From contig NZ_JANQCD010000022.1 in the NCBI RefSeq assembly GCF_026672275.1, positions 1 to 64,000 of the forward strand: a stretch of 64,000 nt of DNA, in the 5' to 3' direction. The position numbers and the translations under genes are program-made. This document shows positions 9,814-18,325 of the stretch, one piece after another; the stretch's first letter is position 1, and each line of letters opens with the position of its first letter. The notes under the pieces were generated by a model. The model saw only the letters and a program-made list of their open reading frames with translations. It was not told the DNA's origin and searched no databases. The DNA comes from Marinifilum sp. D737. GTDB lineage: Bacteria; Bacteroidota; Bacteroidia; Bacteroidales; Marinifilaceae.

Positions 9814-9950
9814 AATACCAAAATATTAGATCCTGACCGATTTCATTCGCTTACGCGGAATTAGCCCTGGTTACATATCATTAAGATTCAATTTTCTCCT
9901 CGAAGCTATTCTTTGTTAGGTCATAAAAAACCTGCAGTTTCTGCAAAGCA

Positions 9951-10124
9951 AATAAGAATTTGTGATATATCCCCCTCAAGCCCTTCTGAAATCAAGTGCA
10001 AATATAAGAAAGTATTTAAATATCTTACTGATATGATGCAATAAAATACTTCCAAGTCCTTATTAACTGAAACGTAAAAATTTCGGTTTGGATACGTTTG
10101 CGAAAAAGAAATAACAGACTTAAT
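9951..10124. repeat. 174-bp direct repeat, copy A (upstream of sufB)
   Basis: Aligned by eye, 9951-10124 matches 12363-12535 over its whole length with about a dozen differences (roughly 93% identity), one of them a one-base gap. On the minus strand each copy carries a TAnnTTTG promoter box: TATATTTG at 10006-9999 here, TATGTTTG in copy B. The similarity stops sharply at both ends. The stretch 9814-10550 holds no gene; besides this repeat it has only the hairpin at 10301-10331 and an HTH-gene leader. Confidence 0.85.
9999..10006 (-). promoter_or_regulatory. Probable sufB promoter box
   Basis: TATATTTG on the minus strand fits the Bacteroidota -7 box TAnnTTTG and faces sufB, 186 bases before its ATG. 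No good TTTG -33 box is found at the usual distance, so the call is moderate. The same box is kept (TATGTTTG) in direct repeat copy B, where no gene for it to drive is nearby. Confidence 0.45.
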
Positions 10125-10331: not shown

Positions 10332-10534
10332 TATTCGATCAAAAAAGTAAATTTTAAATTACCAGTTTGTTTGATTGAGTTTCTTAGGTCGAACTCACGT
10401 TAATATACATAAGTTAAAACAAAAAGCTAATCACATCAATACATCACTTGATAATAAAAAAAATAACGCTCATCACTTTTTTAACAGAACATAAGTTGCG
10501 TTTTTTTAATTTTAAGAATAAATAAACCAATTAT

Positions 10535-10543
10535 AGGGAGAGG
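10535..10543 (+). promoter_or_regulatory. Strong Shine-Dalgarno site before the first HTH gene
   Basis: AGGGAGAGG lies 7 bases before the ATG at 10551. Such purine-rich sites are uncommon in Bacteroidota, where most starts here are preceded only by A/T-rich sequence. It fixes the start of this small gene and may point to a gene acquired from elsewhere. Confidence 0.55.
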
Positions 10544-10550
10544 TTGTATT

Positions 10551-10757
10551 ATGAATTACGAAACAATTCTTAAAAGAAATGAACGTTTAAAATATCTAAT
10601 TCAAAATAAAAACACCGGAACTCCGGAAGAATTAGCTAAAAAACTAAACACTTCAGTCAGCACTGTTTTTCGGATGGTAAAAGCACTTAAGAATTTAGGA
10701 GAACCAATTGTGTATTCTAAAATTCGAAAAACCTATTACTACAACAATAATATGTGA
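10551..10757 (+). CDS. Small HTH DNA-binding protein, module A
   Basis: A 68-residue protein made of almost nothing but a helix-turn-helix: NTGTPEELAKKLNTSVSTVFRMVKAL (about 22-47) has the shape of an HTH_11/DeoR-type winged-helix N-terminus, followed by a short wing-like tail LGEPIVYSKIRKTYYY. It is a paralogue of the 67-residue protein at 12751-12954 (shared pattern NTGTPxELAKxLNxSxxxxxRxxKxLKxxxxPIxYSxxxxxY). Each is followed by a similar structured leader and a cargo gene. I infer a local regulator of the downstream cargo; this is not shown by the sequence. Start fixed by the Shine-Dalgarno site. Confidence 0.8.
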   Translation: MNYETILKRNERLKYLIQNKNTGTPEELAKKLNTSVSTVFRMVKALKNLGEPIVYSKIRKTYYYNNNM

Positions 10758-10915
10758 AAGCAATCAAAACGCTTTAACCTCTAAAAAAATGACACTTCAA
10801 TCTATTTCTTATTTAGAACGGAAGTCTTCATACACAGTGAACCCCTAAGATAACAAGCATGAAGCTTATGTTTTATTAAAACATCCACCCATTAAATAGA
10901 CTTAATAAAAATAAT

Positions 10916-11055
10916 CAAACTGTCACCTCGTGATAGTTTGCTTACATAACTTAGTTCTCGAGTTCATTCAATTGCGCAAAAGAAAAAAAACTCAAGCCTA
11001 TTATCTCGTTTGAGGAGATAAGGGCAAAAATCAATTTTTTGTCTAATTTAAAATT
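10916..11055 (+). ncRNA. Structured leader, module A
   Basis: Non-coding stretch between the HTH gene and the peptide gene. Stem P1: 10916-10926 pairs with 10930-10940 (11 consecutive pairs, one G-U). Then TAACTTAG (10947-10954). Stem P2: CTCGAGTT (10957-10964) with AACTCAAG (10989-10996), one mismatch. Stem P3: TTATCTC (11001-11007) with GAGATAA (11015-11021), extended by CCT/GGG. Then GGGC, an A-rich link and TTTTGTCTAATT (11037-11048), 7 bases before the ATG at 11056. The leader at 12958-13100 has the same order and nearly the same distances. It may be a regulatory RNA, or a DNA operator for the small HTH protein. Confidence 0.6.
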
Positions 11056-11342
11056 ATGAATAAAATTAACAAAAAGTTTATTCTTGGTATCGCATTAAGT
11101 ATGATTTTTCTTTAGCAATTATGCAAGGTATTAGCCAAAAGAACATGCAACAGCAAACAAAGAATATACAGCAAGTTAGCGCAGGGTGTATCGTTTTAGC
11201 AGCTTATTCTGACAATAAAGCAGTTTCAGCAGTATCAGGTGTCTACGGAGGTTGTGTACTGGAATTTGCCGCAAGCTCATGCGGAGTATGGGGGGCAATG
11301 GGTCCAGTTGGTTGGATGATAGGTGGAGGATTGGCATTATAG
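11056..11342 (+). pseudogene. Bacteriocin-like secreted peptide gene with a one-base frame break
   Basis: The ATG at 11056, just after the conserved leader, opens a frame that reads MNKINKKFILGIALSMIFL and stops at 11113-11115. The frame shifted by -1 continues at once from the same place to 11342. Adding one T in the T run at 11104-11109 joins them into a 95-residue protein: a basic then hydrophobic signal-like N-terminus, a Gln-rich linker, and a C-terminus with three Cys (45, 67, 76) and the Gly-rich hydrophobic end GVWGAMGPVGWMIGGGLAL. That build resembles small hydrophobic bacteriocins, but I recognise no family. The break may be a real mutation, a homopolymer sequencing error, or less likely a -1 frameshift. 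A membrane protein gene follows 32 bases later. Confidence 0.6.
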
Positions 11343-11374
11343 TATTAATTTTATGAATATCACCTTATTAAATT

Positions 11375-11974
11375 ATGGCAACAAACAAAACGAAATTAAC
11401 ATTATCTGTTCTGTCAATTATTACAATAACTTTAGGAATAATTATATGGCAAGTATTTGATAAAGTAAACAATACGGTAATTTTAACAATAATTCCTATC
11501 TGTCTTATAGTAATGTTGACAACATTTTACTTTTGGAAAACAAATTCAGAAAATTTGGGCTCTACATTATTTTTTGAATTAGAATCAAAAAGAAAAATAA
11601 AATCAACAGTCACTCAAATAATTATGAAGACCATACTTTATGTACTCTTGTTTTTTAATTTTTACTTCTTTTCAAATAGTCAATTCAACTTTTTTTATTC
11701 TTGTATATACCTTGGGATCTTTCTAGTAATTAACATTGTGTATTTCATGCAAGAAATGCTAGTAGTGGACTCTAAAAAAATAAGACATTCACCAAGATGG
11801 AGTACAAAATGGAAAAATATCAATAATTACAGTCTTAATTCCGACTCTAGAATACTATCAATCAAAAAAACAAATGGTCAGGTAATCCAAATATCGGGGA
11901 TCATGCAAAAAGATTTAAAAGATGTAGAAACAGCAATTAAAAAACATCTATACGCTAACACTAAAAAATCATAG
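11375..11974 (+). CDS. Unknown four-helix membrane protein, possible immunity protein
   Basis: A 199-residue protein with four predicted membrane helices (about 8-26, 34-54, 82-100, 104-125) and a soluble C-terminal domain of about 70 residues (LSIKKTNGQVIQISGIMQKDL and a final amphipathic helix), vaguely like a bacterial PH-type domain. I recognise no family. It lies 32 bases after the bacteriocin-like peptide gene on the same strand. By position, it could protect the producer from that peptide, but this is inference only. Confidence 0.65.
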   Translation: MATNKTKLTLSVLSIITITLGIIIWQVFDKVNNTVILTIIPICLIVMLTTFYFWKTNSENLGSTLFFELESKRKIKSTVTQIIMKTILYVLLFFNFYFFSNSQFNFFYSCIYLGIFLVINIVYFMQEMLVVDSKKIRHSPRWSTKWKNINNYSLNSDSRILSIKKTNGQVIQISGIMQKDLKDVETAIKKHLYANTKKS

Positions 11975-12048
11975 CCAGTGAAATATATAAAACTCAATTT
12001 GTATGTTATAGAATTTAATTCTTATGATACACCGTTCAATTACAATTT

Positions 12049-12309
12049 ATGACTCTCAAAAATATTAAAAACGCGAAATGCTTTTGGATATTTTTTCTTA
12101 TATCTTCTTGTATTTGGATAACGTCCTTATTGATTAGGTTGTTTTGTATAAGTTCTCAAGATTTACAACCACTTCTCGAGCTATCTAAATCGCATCAAGA
12201 TGCTACAATAAACAAATTAATACACTTAATGAAAAATTTCTTTATGCACAACCAAACTTTATTTGAGACATTAGAAAGCTTGAGTTTAACCGATAAAGTT
12301 AAGGTGTAG
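12049..12309 (+). CDS. Small unknown protein with one membrane segment
   Basis: An 86-residue reading frame with one hydrophobic segment (about 12-32, FWIFFLISSCIWITSLLIRLF) and a polar C-terminal half rich in Leu, His and Asn. No family recognised. It is 74 bases after the four-helix membrane protein on the same strand and ends 53 bases before direct repeat copy B. It may be a short member of the peptide/immunity group or only a chance frame; codon use looks plausible but the length gives little support. Confidence 0.4.
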   Translation: MTLKNIKNAKCFWIFFLISSCIWITSLLIRLFCISSQDLQPLLELSKSHQDATINKLIHLMKNFFMHNQTLFETLESLSLTDKVKV

Positions 12310-12362
12310 AAAAACTAAATCACCTCAATTTCAGGATTGAAATACGATGAATTTCTAAATCG

Positions 12363-12535
12363 AATAAGAATTTGTGAACTATCCCCCTCAAGCCCTTCTG
12401 AAATCAAGTGCAAACATAAGAAAGCATTTAAATATCTTACTGATATGATGCAATAAAACACTCCCAAGTCCATATTAACTGAAACATAAAAATTTCGGTT
12501 TGGATATGTTCGCAAAAAGAAAGAACAGACTTAAT
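12363..12535. repeat. 174-bp direct repeat, copy B
   Basis: Near-copy of 9951-10124 (173 bases, about 93% identical by eye), 2412 bases downstream and in the same orientation. It includes the minus-strand TATGTTTG box although no minus-strand gene follows. The rest of 12310-12750 holds no gene; it is AT-rich with a GTTTAACATTGTTTAACA repeat just before the second HTH gene (about 12655-12672). Confidence 0.85.
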
Positions 12536-12750
12536 TATCTTCATTCCTCATTGTAAGCAGAAAAAATATTAAATCAACACCACCCATTTAACACTTTAAA
12601 TTCACACAATTTAACCGCTGATAAAATCCTATTTGACGTAATAAAAAAACAACCGTTTAACATTGTTTAACATTTTTAAGGGTTACCTTTTTAATAAAGA
12701 GGGAATTAATAGATACAAACCACACAAAAACCAATTTAAAAATTAACCAA

Positions 12751-12954
12751 ATGACACATTTAGAATTACTAGAAAAAACCGAATACCTAAAAGAGATCAT
12801 AAAAAAAGGTAATACGGGAACACCACAGGAATTAGCCAAAAGATTAAACATTTCAGAACGGAGCCTTTCCCGTCTCATAAAAAACTTAAAGGAAGCTAAT
12901 TTTCCCATCATTTATTCGCGCACAAAACAATCATACATAACAGAAGAATTCTAA
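12751..12954 (+). CDS. Small HTH DNA-binding protein, module B
   Basis: A 67-residue paralogue of the protein at 10551-10757, with the same layout: N-terminal helix, NTGTPQELAKRLNISERSLSRLIKNL helix-turn-helix (about 21-46), and the short tail FPIIYSRTKQSYI. Identity between the two is only about 45% although the direct repeats before them are about 93% identical, so the repeats are either younger or under stronger constraint than the genes. No Shine-Dalgarno site here (AACCAA before ATG). It is followed 3 bases later by the structured leader of module B. Confidence 0.8.
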   Translation: MTHLELLEKTEYLKEIIKKGNTGTPQELAKRLNISERSLSRLIKNLKEANFPIIYSRTKQSYITEEF

Positions 12955-12957
12955 ATA

Positions 12958-13100
12958 AGCTCGTCGCCAAAATATGGCGATGAGCTTTCCTAACTTAGCC
13001 CTTGAGTTGTAAACAATACGCTTTCAAAGCTCAAGACTTAGGATTCTTATCATGAGTTAGGGGCGAAATTATTTCTTTTGTCTAATTAAATTAATACAAA
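12958..13100 (+). ncRNA. Structured leader, module B
   Basis: Stem P1: 12958-12968 pairs with 12976-12986 (11 consecutive pairs, one G-U) but with a sequence different from module A, so the pairing is kept while most bases have changed. Then TAACTTAG (12991-12998), identical to A and again 2 bases before stem P2: CTTGAGTT (13001-13008) with AGCTCAAG (13028-13035). Then a less clear pairing region, GGGGC (13060-13064), and TTTTGTCTAATT (13076-13087), identical to A. From P2 to this last box is 75 bases here and 80 in A. The ATG of the cargo gene follows at 13101. Alternative pairing of CTCA in P2 with a downstream TGAG is possible in both leaders. Confidence 0.6.
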
Positions 13101-13592
13101 ATGAAAAACAACGACCTTATTCAAGTAGTCTTCACCGAAGAAGAATTGACAGCAAACAAAACGCATTTAGATGAATTGTTAACAACTGCAACCAAAAATG
13201 CTCCGGAACTGTCGTCAGAAGAAAGAACACGTTATGGGAAAATTGGCGGCACAAACAAATTACTGGTAGATAAAGCTCACTTGTTTATGCAGCAAAATCC
13301 AAGTTTGATTCCTGCTTTTGTGAATATGGAAGAATTTGCACGTGATTTTAAAGCTCGTGAAGAAATTGAGGGAATGATACAAAAGCTTGAACTCATCACT
13401 CGACGCTTGAGTGATACCAAAATACTTCTCGATAACGATAACTACAATGATGCCATGGCATTCTATCGTGCAATTCGCTATTACGCCGGGGAGCAGGAAC
13501 AAATGGCTATTCCTATTTATGAAGAAATGAAGCAGTTTTTCCCTCATGGTAAGAAAAAGGAGGAAGAAAAAGCTGAAACCGAAAACAAATAA
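13101..13592 (+). CDS. Unknown 163-residue cytoplasmic protein
   Basis: A mostly helical, charged protein without signal peptide or membrane segment. It begins MKNNDLIQVVFTEEELTA, has a central EERTRYGKIGGTNKLLVDKAH segment and ends in a Lys/Glu-rich tail (KKKEEEKAETENK). It reminds me of hypothetical proteins common in Bacteroidota, but I can give no function. It follows the module B leader, the same kind of leader that precedes the bacteriocin-like peptide, so the two unrelated proteins may share control. A good terminator follows. Confidence 0.75.
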   Translation: MKNNDLIQVVFTEEELTANKTHLDELLTTATKNAPELSSEERTRYGKIGGTNKLLVDKAHLFMQQNPSLIPAFVNMEEFARDFKAREEIEGMIQKLELITRRLSDTKILLDNDNYNDAMAFYRAIRYYAGEQEQMAIPIYEEMKQFFPHGKKKEEEKAETENK

Positions 13593-14157: not shown

Positions 14158-15549
14158 ATGAACAAGCCAATTTACATTGCATTTTTGCTATTAAACCTAC
14201 TAAGTAGCACCGCCAATGCACAAATTCAAGTCAACTCTAAAGTGGTTGATAAAGAAAGCGGAAAAGCCATTCCGTTTGCCAATATCTCCATTGCCAACAC
14301 CACAAAAGGCAGCATGAGCAATCAGGAAGGAGATTTTCAACTCTACATTCCTCTGTCAGGCTTAAATACCAGGGTTTTGATTAGTAGCTTAGGCTATAAA
14401 AGCATAAGTATACATCCTAAAGAAATTGGAAAAACCATTGAATTATCACCCGTTTCTTATGGCATTTCGGAGGTAAAAATATCTGCCAATAAACTGATGA
14501 ATGATCCGAAAAAGATTCTAAAGGAATGCATGAAAGCTGCACCTGGTTTTAGGCCCGATCAGCCCTACATCAACAAAGGTTTCATGAGACAAACTCACTT
14601 GCTCAATAAAAAGTATGTAAAACTCATAGAAGCTGCACTGTTTACCTACTCTACTCCCAACGAAAAGGCCAGCAAAGTGCACATACTCGAAAAAAGAAAC
14701 AGCTACGACAACAGAGAAATTGATGCCAAAAAATTAGGTTTCTTTAAGAAATGGGAAAGCACAAGATACAATAAAGCCAAACGAGAAGCGGAGAACTACA
14801 ATCCTGGCAAAGAAGAGCTATTGGAATTAATACGTGAGAGCGATGAGAAAAGAAATTCTGTAAGAAAAATCAAACAATTGAAAACCGCCTACCAAGCTAA
14901 AATAAAAGACCTAAGGCTTAGTTTAAATGACATATACAACGATAAAAACTCTCAATTAAAACTAGATACCATTCTGGAGAATGATGGAGAAGGAATCTAT
15001 AAAATAAAGATACTTCCTACGGCCAAAGAATTAAAAAGCAGTCCTTTTATTAGCATTGGCTACCTTCTTATATCAACCAAGGATTTTGCTTTGTATGAAC
15101 TTAAATATGGAATGACAAAGAACCCAAAAATTGCTAACCTACAACAAGTGGCATTTATTAACCTTGTTAAATCAAACTTCACCCTAAAATACAAACGCTA
15201 TAAAGGCAAGCTTTACCCTTCGTACTTTAAAAGAAACAGTTTTGATCTAACTGGAATGTCTGATGTTAAAATTCACTTAGAAAAAGCCAAATATCCACGC
15301 ATTTGCCAAGAGTTTTTATTTACCGAAATCATTGACAACACAAAAGAAGTAAAACAAAACCTACCAGCGAAATGGAACGACAAGCTATATGAAGATAGCG
15401 AGTACCATCCTGAATTTTGGGAGAATTACACCATACTGCTTGAAACCAAAGATGAAGCCAAGCTTCGCAAGGATTTAGAGAGTGAGGTAAGCCTGAAAGA
15501 ACAATACCAACATGCTACCGATAGCATTCGAATTAATCAAATCAATTAA
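14158..15549 (+). CDS. Exported carboxypeptidase-regulatory-like domain protein, paralogue 1
   Basis: A 463-residue protein with a signal peptide (about 1-21, ending TANAQ) and an N-terminal CarboxypepD_reg-like beta-sandwich: VVDKESGKAIPFANISIANT at 29-48, then NQEGDFQLYIP and LISSLGYKSISI. The remaining 330 residues have no named family I can identify. It shares this whole layout with the next gene, including RQTHLLNKKYVKLIEAA in the middle and YHPEFWENYTILL near the end, so the two are tandem paralogues. Such domains are common on Bacteroidota surface proteins. First gene of a four-gene plus-strand operon. Confidence 0.85.
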   Translation: MNKPIYIAFLLLNLLSSTANAQIQVNSKVVDKESGKAIPFANISIANTTKGSMSNQEGDFQLYIPLSGLNTRVLISSLGYKSISIHPKEIGKTIELSPVSYGISEVKISANKLMNDPKKILKECMKAAPGFRPDQPYINKGFMRQTHLLNKKYVKLIEAALFTYSTPNEKASKVHILEKRNSYDNREIDAKKLGFFKKWESTRYNKAKREAENYNPGKEELLELIRESDEKRNSVRKIKQLKTAYQAKIKDLRLSLNDIYNDKNSQLKLDTILENDGEGIYKIKILPTAKELKSSPFISIGYLLISTKDFALYELKYGMTKNPKIANLQQVAFINLVKSNFTLKYKRYKGKLYPSYFKRNSFDLTGMSDVKIHLEKAKYPRICQEFLFTEIIDNTKEVKQNLPAKWNDKLYEDSEYHPEFWENYTILLETKDEAKLRKDLESEVSLKEQYQHATDSIRINQIN

Positions 15550-15559
15550 TTCCCAGCCT

Positions 15560-16993
15560 ATGAAACCAATTGTTATTAAAATATTTTGCGCATTACTATT
15601 TGCGCCATTTTCAGTATTCAGTCAAAACAAACTAAAAGCAAATATATCCAATGGAGAACAAAAAGCCATTGCCTTTGCCAGTGTAGCCTTAAAGGGAACA
15701 AGCTTGGGAACCATAAGTAATCCCAACGGAAATTTTGAATTGGCCTTGCCTTCAGACGATACAAAACAGCAAATTGTTATTTCCTGTATTGGCTACAAGA
15801 GCCAGGCATTTGCTGTTGATTCGCTTTTGAAAATTCAGAAGAAAGGAAGCATTCCAAAACTTTACTTGAACAAGCATTCCTATCAACTACAGGAAATCAC
15901 TGTAGGCAAGCAAGAGATATTAAAAGATGCCAAGCAAATTTTTGCCAATGCCATTAATGAGCTACCAAAGCTGTTAGATGATCAGCCCCATATTGGCAAA
16001 TATTATTTTCGACAATCGCACCGCAGCAAGACTAGCATGAACCGCTTGATTGAGGCTGCCGTTAGCATTTACGATCCTGGAATATCACACAAGATTGAAG
16101 AGTGCAAATTCAATATTGATGAATTACAATCAAGCTTAGACAATAGAGATATTGACTTCAAATCATTACTTGGTTTTTACCAATACATTCAAAAGAAAAA
16201 AGACATTGCAAAAGATAGTTTATTGGTAAATTCAGAATCTTATAACGATCCTGAAGTACAAAAAAGACTTGTAAACGCCTTAGACAACAACAAAGCTTCT
16301 TTTTTTAAATTCTTTACTGCTACCAATATGATTCGGGCTGCACAAAAAGAAAGACGAAAAAACTCAAAACCAGTCAATCCATGGTTTGTAAATGGTGGTC
16401 CTCTATTAAGCAAAACCTTTATGAAGAAACACAGGTTTAAATTGGATACCATTATACAGTACAATGGTGAAGCCACCTACAAAGTAAAGATTCTACCAAA
16501 TAAAAACTATCTGGGGCTAGAAGGTCAAGAACATAAATTTATGCCAATAGGAATTGCTTATATCAGATTGAAAGATTTTGCGATTTTTAATCTTGACTAT
16601 GGATTCATTAGTAATCCGAAATACAAAGGATTTAAATACAGAGGTGAGCGACATGGAACGTTTAAAGGCAATTACAGATATTACTACCTGTTTAAAATTA
16701 GGTTTAAAGAATACAATAGCAAATTCTATCTTAACTACTTATACTCCATACGAGGTGATTATAACGATGATTTATCAGGAAGTCAAAAGGTGATTCAGGA
16801 AATGGTGAATACTGAAATCATAAATGATCAGGATATCGTAAATCAACAGTTCCAACAACTCAACTGGAAAGGGGATCATTACGAAAAACTTCCCTACCAC
16901 AAAGAATTTTGGGACAATTACACCACCCTGCTTCCAAGCCAGGAGCAAGAAAACCTAAAGAAAAACCTGGAACAAGAACTTTTAAAGAAATAA
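15560..16993 (+). CDS. Exported carboxypeptidase-regulatory-like domain protein, paralogue 2
   Basis: Start chosen at 15560, 10 bases after the previous stop, because it begins the signal peptide MKPIVIKIFCALLFAPFSVFSQ; an upstream ATG at 15512 would overlap the previous gene. The mature 477-residue protein has the same N-terminal domain (EQKAIAFASVALKGTSLGTI, then VISCIGYKSQAF) and a similar body (YYFRQSHRSKTSMNRLIEAA; YHKEFWDNYTTLL near the C-terminus). It is a diverged tandem copy of the preceding gene. Function unknown; probably periplasmic or outer-membrane facing. Four bases before the next gene. Confidence 0.85.
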   Translation: MKPIVIKIFCALLFAPFSVFSQNKLKANISNGEQKAIAFASVALKGTSLGTISNPNGNFELALPSDDTKQQIVISCIGYKSQAFAVDSLLKIQKKGSIPKLYLNKHSYQLQEITVGKQEILKDAKQIFANAINELPKLLDDQPHIGKYYFRQSHRSKTSMNRLIEAAVSIYDPGISHKIEECKFNIDELQSSLDNRDIDFKSLLGFYQYIQKKKDIAKDSLLVNSESYNDPEVQKRLVNALDNNKASFFKFFTATNMIRAAQKERRKNSKPVNPWFVNGGPLLSKTFMKKHRFKLDTIIQYNGEATYKVKILPNKNYLGLEGQEHKFMPIGIAYIRLKDFAIFNLDYGFISNPKYKGFKYRGERHGTFKGNYRYYYLFKIRFKEYNSKFYLNYLYSIRGDYNDDLSGSQKVIQEMVNTEIINDQDIVNQQFQQLNWKGDHYEKLPYHKEFWDNYTTLLPSQEQENLKKNLEQELLKK

Positions 16994-16997
16994 AGCC

Positions 16998-17762
16998 ATG
17001 AATAGATTTCTAAATACGATTACAAATGTCAAAACTGTATATGTTTTAATCTTTACACTGGTAATCACGCTATTTGTAAATTTTATCTACTATGATTATA
17101 TCAACACCACTGAACTTCTAAGAAAACATCATCACGAAAAACAAGTTAAACAAGAAGCAGAGCTATACCAGGAGCACGATGATTTAATGGCAGATTTTAA
17201 AGATGATTTGGCTGAAATTGAACTAGAAGCAGATGAAACAGATTCACAATCTGGTTCTACTTATTTTGGCGATATCTTTTTTAATATTACCTATGATTTA
17301 ATTCCTCCCCTATGCATTTGCCTGGGATTGGCTTTATTTGTTTTCATTGGCTTTCAATTCTTCCCAGACCTAAAGGATATTGCATATGGCAATCTTTTAA
17401 AATCTATACTTATTGCCTACCTAATATTTCCATTAAGTACATTGTTTAAATGCATTTGGTTTGGTTTGTTTCAAAACCAATATGAAGTGATCGATTTGCA
17501 ACAGGTGGAAAGCATTCTAAATCCATCCATTCAAAGTTTTTTAACTAAGCCCACGGAGTACCAATGGTATCATTATCTATTTGCAGATATGACCTTTCAA
17601 AATCTGCTATTCGCACTTCTCATTCCATTCTTTTTAAAATCCATAATAGGATTTAAATATTCCGAACTGCTAAAAAAGATGAGCATCTCACTTGTTGGAT
17701 TTTTTATTGTATTCCACATCGTATCACCTTATCAGTTGTATCTAATTTTCTTATTTGATTAA
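16998..17762 (+). CDS. Unknown membrane protein with acidic loop
   Basis: A 254-residue protein with an N-terminal membrane helix (about 12-31), a hydrophilic and strongly acidic stretch (about 50-85, rich in Glu and Asp) and about four more helices (about 97-121, 133-156, 198-216, 228-252). No family recognised. It is tightly packed after the paralogous exported proteins (4 bases) and before the thioredoxin-like protein (8 bases), so the four products probably act together at the envelope. Confidence 0.75.
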   Translation: MNRFLNTITNVKTVYVLIFTLVITLFVNFIYYDYINTTELLRKHHHEKQVKQEAELYQEHDDLMADFKDDLAEIELEADETDSQSGSTYFGDIFFNITYDLIPPLCICLGLALFVFIGFQFFPDLKDIAYGNLLKSILIAYLIFPLSTLFKCIWFGLFQNQYEVIDLQQVESILNPSIQSFLTKPTEYQWYHYLFADMTFQNLLFALLIPFFLKSIIGFKYSELLKKMSISLVGFFIVFHIVSPYQLYLIFLFD

Positions 17763-17770
17763 TTGTAAAC

Positions 17771-18325
17771 ATGTATATTATGAATCGCAAAACAATTATT
17801 GTAGGTATTGTAATCCTCTTAATCGTTTCGTTAGGGATTATTATAAGGTCTCAAATTATAAAAAAAGAAAACAGCTTAATGCAAAAACAGGAAGTTAAAG
17901 CAGAGCTTACCTCTATACCTAAATTCAATTTCCAAGATATACCAGGAAACCCATTTACCAATGCCAACTTAGAAAAGGATAAACCCACTGTGGTGGTTCA
18001 CTTTGGTAATTTTTGTCCCTATTGTCATGAGGAAGCTAAAATTATGAGTCACTATTCCGAGGAGTACAAAGATTTCCAACTCTTGTATGTAACCAAAGAT
18101 GAAATGGATAACATTAACATCTTTATGAACAAACACAAGTTAAGAGATAAATTGAATCTTACCATTTTAAGGTATGAGAACAATGAATTCGAAGAAGCCT
18201 TTGGCTCCAGATCACTTCCTTGTGTTTTCATTTTCGACAAGCATCAAAAATTCGTACAACATTTCGATGGAGCAGTTACGGCACGTACTTTAATCAAGTA
18301 TACACGTGCTGCGAATCTCAAATAA
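17771..18325 (+). CDS. Membrane-anchored thioredoxin-like protein
   Basis: A 184-residue protein with an N-terminal membrane anchor (about 7-25) and a thioredoxin/TlpA-type domain. The redox motif FCPYC (Cys82, Cys85) sits in VVHFGNFCPYCHEEAKIM, and the cis-proline loop is RSLPCVFIFD. The fold should face the periplasm. An alternative ATG three codons later (17780) is equally good. It ends the four-gene operon. It could make or shuffle disulfides in the cysteine-containing peptide or in surface proteins, which is inference. Confidence 0.85.
   Translation: MYIMNRKTIIVGIVILLIVSLGIIIRSQIIKKENSLMQKQEVKAELTSIPKFNFQDIPGNPFTNANLEKDKPTVVVHFGNFCPYCHEEAKIMSHYSEEYKDFQLLYVTKDEMDNINIFMNKHKLRDKLNLTILRYENNEFEEAFGSRSLPCVFIFDKHQKFVQHFDGAVTARTLIKYTRAANLK

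Follow-up and report, generated by a model that had tools for sequence, protein, structure and literature searches.

The genome of Marinifilum sp. D737 (5.08 Mb) carries, on contig NZ_JANQCD010000022.1, a stretch of 64,000 nt that was analysed as a whole (the window), in which two units of the same layout lie on the plus strand, each consisting of a very small helix-turn-helix (HTH) gene, a structured leader and a downstream gene, or cargo. The first unit begins with a mini winged-HTH gene coding for 68 amino acids (gene A, 10551..10757; homologs in relatives), followed by an inverted repeat of 13 bp with a 5-base loop (stem 1, 10913..10943), the octamer TAACTTAG (10947..10954), a hairpin of the form GAGTT...AACTC with the palindrome TTGCGCAA in its loop (P2, 10960..10993; present in all leaders of this short class, with a predicted fold in relatives), and a second hairpin, GCCT..ATCTC and GAGAT..GGGC around a 7-base loop (P3, 10996..11025; pairing taken from the alignment). 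An A/T-rich segment (11025..11055), which in relatives is predicted to fold into a hairpin (P4), precedes the start codon and contains the box TTTTGTCTAATT (11037..11048), also found in two leaders of other loci (L080 and L066). By three-frame translation, the cargo gene itself, encoding a secreted Gly-rich peptide (11056..11342), is out of frame: the start codon at 11056 opens 19 codons that end in a stop, and the remainder lies in another frame (11121-11342). No Pfam match to cargo 1 was detected, read-through across the frame break included.

The second unit repeats this order, with HTH gene B (12751..12954, 67 amino acids, 91% identical to its homolog in the related genome G001), stem 1 (12957..12987, again 13 bp with a 5-base loop), TAACTTAG (12991..12998), P2 (13004..13032; short-class alignment and fold prediction), P3 (13035..13064) and an exact TTTTGTCTAATT (13076..13087). 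Its P3 is the most divergent of the 20 copies aligned (ATTCTTATCATGAGT replacing ATCTCGTTCGAGGAGAT), and its cargo (13101..13592), which has counterparts in relatives, is a 163-residue protein beginning MKNNDLIQ in whose translation no signal sequence was seen. Both HTH proteins exceed the gathering score of 25 bits for Pfam HTH_11 (35.7 bits for A and 33.5 bits for B). The two units are accompanied by direct repeats of 162 bp that are 92% identical (9945..10106 and 12357..12518, unstranded), the first of which lies beside the promoter of the divergent suf operon (minus-strand TATATTTG) and the second of which is a trace of tandem duplication; the repeat carries the suf operon promoter region. 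Given these repeats, the window copies arose in a duplicated suf-adjacent segment. Downstream of copy 2, positions 14158-18325 encode two CarboxypepD_reg-like proteins, a membrane protein and a thioredoxin-like protein, and CarboxypepD-like genes are similarly placed 3' of many cargos in relatives.

A sequence-only reading of this DNA had located both leaders correctly, and several of its details can now be refined. It described stem 1 as 11 bp long and fully paired; the stem is real, with two arms of 13 bases each around a 5-base loop (10913-10943 and 12957-12987), and pairing is nearly complete, with one T.C mismatch and one G.T pair in copy 1 and one G.T pair in copy 2. The bases of stem 1 do differ largely between the copies (7 of the 13 in the left arm). 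The gap between TAACTTAG and GAGTT, which begins at 10960 in copy 1 and at 13004 in copy 2, is five bases and not two. The TTTTGTCTAATT box is exact in both copies, but taken alone it is no more frequent than expected by chance. Across the 5.08 Mb genome, the pattern TAACTTAGnnnnnGAGTT has exactly two matches, both at these leaders (0 for the reversed control), and stem 1 folds far more stably than shuffled sequences (z = −5.7 for copy 1 and −8.4 for copy 2).

The covariance-model search that had been proposed on the basis of the two copies was run with a model (R1) built from 12 aligned leaders located behind mini-HTH genes, in collections containing one genome per species. Matches to this short class were found in 20 of the 59 Marinifilaceae genomes at E up to 0.1, with 20 strong copies scoring 106-134 bits; further copies thus exist. 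In the alignment of 20 sequences, which was fitted to the covariance model, 93.9% of the cells pair, compared to 85.0% in column shuffles and 27-46% when slid, and 37 cells are changed on both sides versus a shuffled mean of 10.4. A second model (R2), built on a longer, related leader that follows other mini-HTH genes, matches 16 of the 59 family genomes, and 25 copies of this long class, likewise fitted to their model, were aligned. The host genome contains five leader copies, the two short ones in the window and three long ones (C35:13875, C52:43735 and C73:801). In one long-class copy (L158:2373-2603, on a contig shared with L019), an insert of about 100 bases with inverted-repeat ends, AGTGTAAAGAT...ATCTTTACACT, is located inside a helix.

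Outside Marinifilaceae, no strong matches to R1, R2 or R3 were detected at the sensitivity used, few candidates having been scored per genome in the large scans. The exact P3 pattern, searched in 84,980 species genomes, was found in Marinifilum, Labilibaculum, Ancylomarina and metagenome-assembled genomes (MAGs) of Marinifilaceae, and once in Chitinophaga, where the other elements of the leader are absent, so that this match was rejected as a leader; one viral match, sitting in GC-rich, coding-like sequence, was discarded as well, and a plasmid search gave no match. In another family of the order (G058, loci L016 and L031), an HTH homolog is separated from exported peptides by another conserved leader, of different sequence. 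The suggestion that no named element has this pattern holds for Rfam: at the gathering threshold, Rfam 15 yields just two tRNAs in the window and no match to the leader, and at permissive thresholds both classes give only terminator-like or chance matches, none of them credible.

The cargos are far from arbitrary. Of the 19 readable short-class cargos, 18 carry a double-glycine (GG) leader, a signal peptide or a lipobox, as judged by eye, the sole exception being that of window copy 2; in the long class, wherever the locus includes the whole of the gene behind the leader, that gene encodes a small exported-type peptide, and several of these cargos are followed in turn by radical SAM or LanC-like genes. 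Against the NCBIfam model TIGR04149 (cut-off 25 bits), the cargos of L074 and L077 score 37.8 and 22.6 bits, respectively, and cargo 2 shows no match. Of the window cargos initially described as a secreted peptide and a cytoplasmic protein, the former is encoded out of frame and the latter is the one departure from export.

Comparison with relatives bears on the origin of this departure. The MKNNDLIQ gene in G001, G004 and G012 is preceded by its own mini-HTH gene, and the suf-adjacent slot in G001 contains, in order, HTH-B, the leader, a lipoprotein gene, a CarboxypepD-like gene, HTH-D and the MKNNDLIQ gene, whereas in the window HTH-B and the leader immediately precede the MKNNDLIQ gene. Most simply, copy 2 would have arisen by a deletion joining the leader to a gene formerly driven by another promoter; the divergent P3 of this copy fits relaxed constraint after such a fusion. 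With cargo 1 out of frame and copy 2 apparently a deletion fusion, both window copies are thus atypical of their family. The presence of a different cargo in the G001 slot, together with the variety of cargos, supports exchange of cargos between units; the notion of a docking unit for changeable cargo survives in this respect, within the limits of a repertoire consisting almost entirely of exported peptides and lipoproteins.

The compensated changes in stem 1 had been taken as the mark of selection on an RNA structure. Several lines of evidence, namely the geometry relative to the downstream box, the symmetry of mismatches, the tracking of the half-site with the recognition helix, and the retention of the dyad type in the absence of an adjacent HTH gene, indicate instead that stem 1 is most likely a DNA dyad, i.e. 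a putative control site, rather than an RNA element. The primary sigma factor of Bacteroidota recognizes a −7 box with the consensus TAnnTTTG (PMC7366714), which in F. psychrophilum spans positions −12 to −5 (PMC9723704). A box of this type is matched by TAACTTAG, with the start position predicted from sequence. In every one of the 28 HTH-linked units of the family, the dyad centre and the box are 18.5 or 19.0 bp apart, despite varying outer arms and loops; in window copy 1, the distance to the TA is 19.0 bp and the dyad centre falls at about −31. Because the scan that collected these units accepted only TA..TT lying roughly 16 to 21 away, these four letters carry no independent weight in this set, and the informative parts are the tightness of the distance and the G at box position 8 (23 of 28 units). 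The short-class copies, collected without the box as a criterion, have TAnnTT in 20 of 20 cases. Position 7 is A or G, not T as in TAnnTTTG, in 24 of the 28 units. No conserved TTTG motif was found at the right spacing for a −33 element, a region occupied by the dyad; the −33 motif was likewise not found in F. johnsoniae (PMC7366714).

Mismatches within stem 1 across the 28 units are strand-symmetric (11 G-T and 11 A-C), compared to 50 G-T and 10 A-C in the well-supported pairs of the long-class RNA helices (Fisher p = 0.004, to be taken as indicative given that the sequences are related and not independent). A folding RNA strand tolerates G-T and not A-C, whereas a DNA dyad treats both alike. 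Similarity of the inner 7-bp half-site correlates with that of the recognition helix once the remainder of the HTH protein is accounted for (partial Mantel r = 0.44, 0 of 2000 permutations, uncorrected for descent), whereas for the outer 6 bp the correlation is weaker (r = 0.20, 121 of 2000), and none is observed when the half-site arms are placed out of register. The types of helix correspond to types of half-site end, with SxS accompanying TCA-type ends, SER accompanying GCCA, and QER accompanying GACA; in standalone copies that have no upstream HTH gene (L066, L067, L071 and L076), the dyad is of the type that goes with the HTH of the same genome. Two near-identical dyads (L063:4801-4899 and L085:6493-6591) have loops of opposite orientation, AAAAA versus TTTTT, as if a small palindrome had been inverted.

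Homologs of the window mini-HTH proteins occur in 18 of the 59 relatives, frequently as pairs; a search of solved structures gave no useful relative. The combination of dyad and box was not found after most of the HTH homologs of other families examined, in a scan that missed many, with one possible case (L018). Outside Marinifilaceae, longer HTH homologs are found (L161, L165, L166, L171, L174 and L182), often ending in a motif resembling a GG leader, e.g. EERKINGGNKNIFLP, and several order-level homologs are located directly upstream of double-glycine peptides, an arrangement that resembles a chimera of regulator and leader.

The segment from the second stem onward appears to be the 5'UTR of the cargo mRNA, given that the transcript is predicted to start at this stem. 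When the box is placed at −12 to −5, the first transcribed base, 12 bases from the first base of the box, would be 10959 in copy 1 and 13003 in copy 2; over the short class, 18 of 20 copies have the predicted start one base ahead of the P2 arm, and the other 2 have it on the arm. Eight long-class copies lack stem 1 and have the box immediately upstream; counted from the base at which RNA pairing begins, the T of the box in these lies at −12 (7 copies) or −13 (1 copy). For most relatives, the fold predicted for the short-class RNA comprises P2, P3 and an A/U hairpin near the start codon, at modest energies (z between −1.6 and −2.6); the centre of the P2 loop is self-complementary (GCGC, UGCA, GUAC or ACGU) in most copies, and P3 alone is only weakly asymmetric (15 G-T versus 6 A-C over 20 copies, p = 0.08). 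The long class shows compensatory change of the kind expected for a structured cis-regulatory RNA, with 91 cells changed on both sides versus a shuffled mean of 33.9, and includes a covarying pseudoknot, in which UUCUC in the loop pairs with a distant downstream GAGAA, the two being replaced by UCCUC and GAGGU in other copies. A pairing of CTCGA, located before P2, with the P3 loop was also considered and was not conserved on inspection of the alignment.

Taken together, conservation, covariation, box geometry, mismatch symmetry, the correlation of half-site and helix, and cargo type, all computed from sequence, suggest a cassette for two-layer control of an exported peptide, a DNA operator and promoter followed by an RNA leader, a reading to which we assign a probability of roughly 0.7. 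The mini winged-HTH protein, encoded immediately upstream, would bind as a dimer to the 13-bp dyad near −31 and control a promoter of the sigma-ABfr type with TAACTTAG as the −7 box; it could act as an activator, which would cover for the missing −33 element, or as a repressor. Transcription would start at the second stem, and the resulting 5'UTR would fold into P2, P3 and the A/U hairpin next to the start codon in the short class, or into a helix, the loop-to-tail pseudoknot and a last hairpin in the long class. Presumably, this leader determines how efficiently the peptide mRNA is translated or how stable it is. Of the two options raised at the outset, a regulatory RNA and an operator set for the HTH protein, the evidence favours both, each for a separate part, stem 1 being operator-like and the second stem onward 5'UTR-like. 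More tentatively, and with considerable doubt on our part, the long class, perhaps along with the short one, could be a new class of pseudoknotted regulatory RNA for exported-peptide genes, with the mini-HTH possibly sensing export, an idea prompted by the GG-leader-like tails of many HTH homologs outside the family; in that case, the peptide exporter or its protease would recognize the regulator itself.

Alternatively, stem 1 could end transcription of the HTH gene as an intrinsic terminator, or act as an attenuator with read-through into the cargo, the whole leader then being one RNA. A strong hairpin does directly follow the HTH stop codon in several units, and in a few copies stem 1 is followed by T6, e.g. 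in the long-class locus L083, whose near-misses in Rfam are terminator hairpins. However, the window copies have no T-run, no terminator-like site was found within 10400-13200, and the conserved G at box position 8 does not belong in a U-tract; furthermore, stem 1 precedes cargos that have no upstream HTH gene (L066, L067 and L076), its mismatches are strand-symmetric, and its inner half-site tracks the recognition helix. We therefore regard this explanation as rather unlikely, although stem 1 may have a dual role, terminator plus operator. It also seems improbable that the leader is a riboswitch or another trans-sensing RNA to which the neighbouring HTH gene makes no direct contribution. Such an RNA would be in keeping with the highly conserved single-stranded stretches and covarying pseudoknot of the long class, and with the 15 of its 25 copies that lack stem 1 and an adjacent HTH gene, but stem 1 holds the same geometry in all short-class copies, HTH and dyad occur together in 28 units, the leader was found in one family only at the sensitivity used, and the cargos are peptides, not metabolic genes.

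The different cargos at the same slot in neighbouring genomes, the location of the window units within a duplicated segment, and the AAAAA versus TTTTT loops of L063 and L085 could all be read as signs that stem 1 is a recombination site, i.e. an attC-like cassette attachment site that moves cargos. This we consider hardly plausible: the regions read show no recombinase next to the units, the distance from dyad to promoter is fixed, the junction in window copy 2 lies downstream of P3 and not at stem 1, and ordinary duplication with homologous recombination explains the exchanges.

Neither leader class is in Rfam or described in the literature searched. As the leaders mark genes for exported peptides in Marinifilaceae, searching with a covariance model uncovers tiny peptide genes missed by annotation. 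Little was found in the literature searched on the regulation of RiPP-like peptides, and the unit makes their joint control by a 65-residue regulator and a folded leader testable. There is also a general pitfall here, in that compensated stems upstream of genes can be DNA operators; the balance of G-T and A-C mismatches can help separate these from RNA structures.

Among described systems, HMP2_1881 is a 108-bp candidate structured RNA of gut Bacteroidetes, reported to be expressed and located near radical SAM genes (PMC8040213); the present leaders resemble it by description, in their occurrence in Bacteroidota and in having radical SAM neighbours. As in the RiPP and double-glycine clusters of Bacteroidales (TIGR04149; PMC10352776), many cargos are GG-leader peptides, in some cases with radical SAM or LanC-like genes behind them, whereas many others come without modification enzymes; in the portion of PMC10352776 searched, the text places one HTH gene in a cluster and mentions no leader RNA. 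The proposed promoter is similar to those of Bacteroidota sigma-ABfr/sigma-A (PMC7366714, PMC9723704) in its TAnnTTnG box with G in the last position and in a predicted start 12 bases on, which coincides with the first RNA helix, and differs in having a dyad in place of the −33 motif and predominantly a purine at position 7. With the HTH_11 small winged-helix regulators (Pfam PF08279), the mini-HTH proteins share the Pfam match, an adjacent long dyad and a half-site that follows the recognition helix; unlike them, they have only 65-69 amino acids and no effector domain, and the putative operator lies 3' of the regulator gene, coupled to what appears to be a structured 5'UTR.
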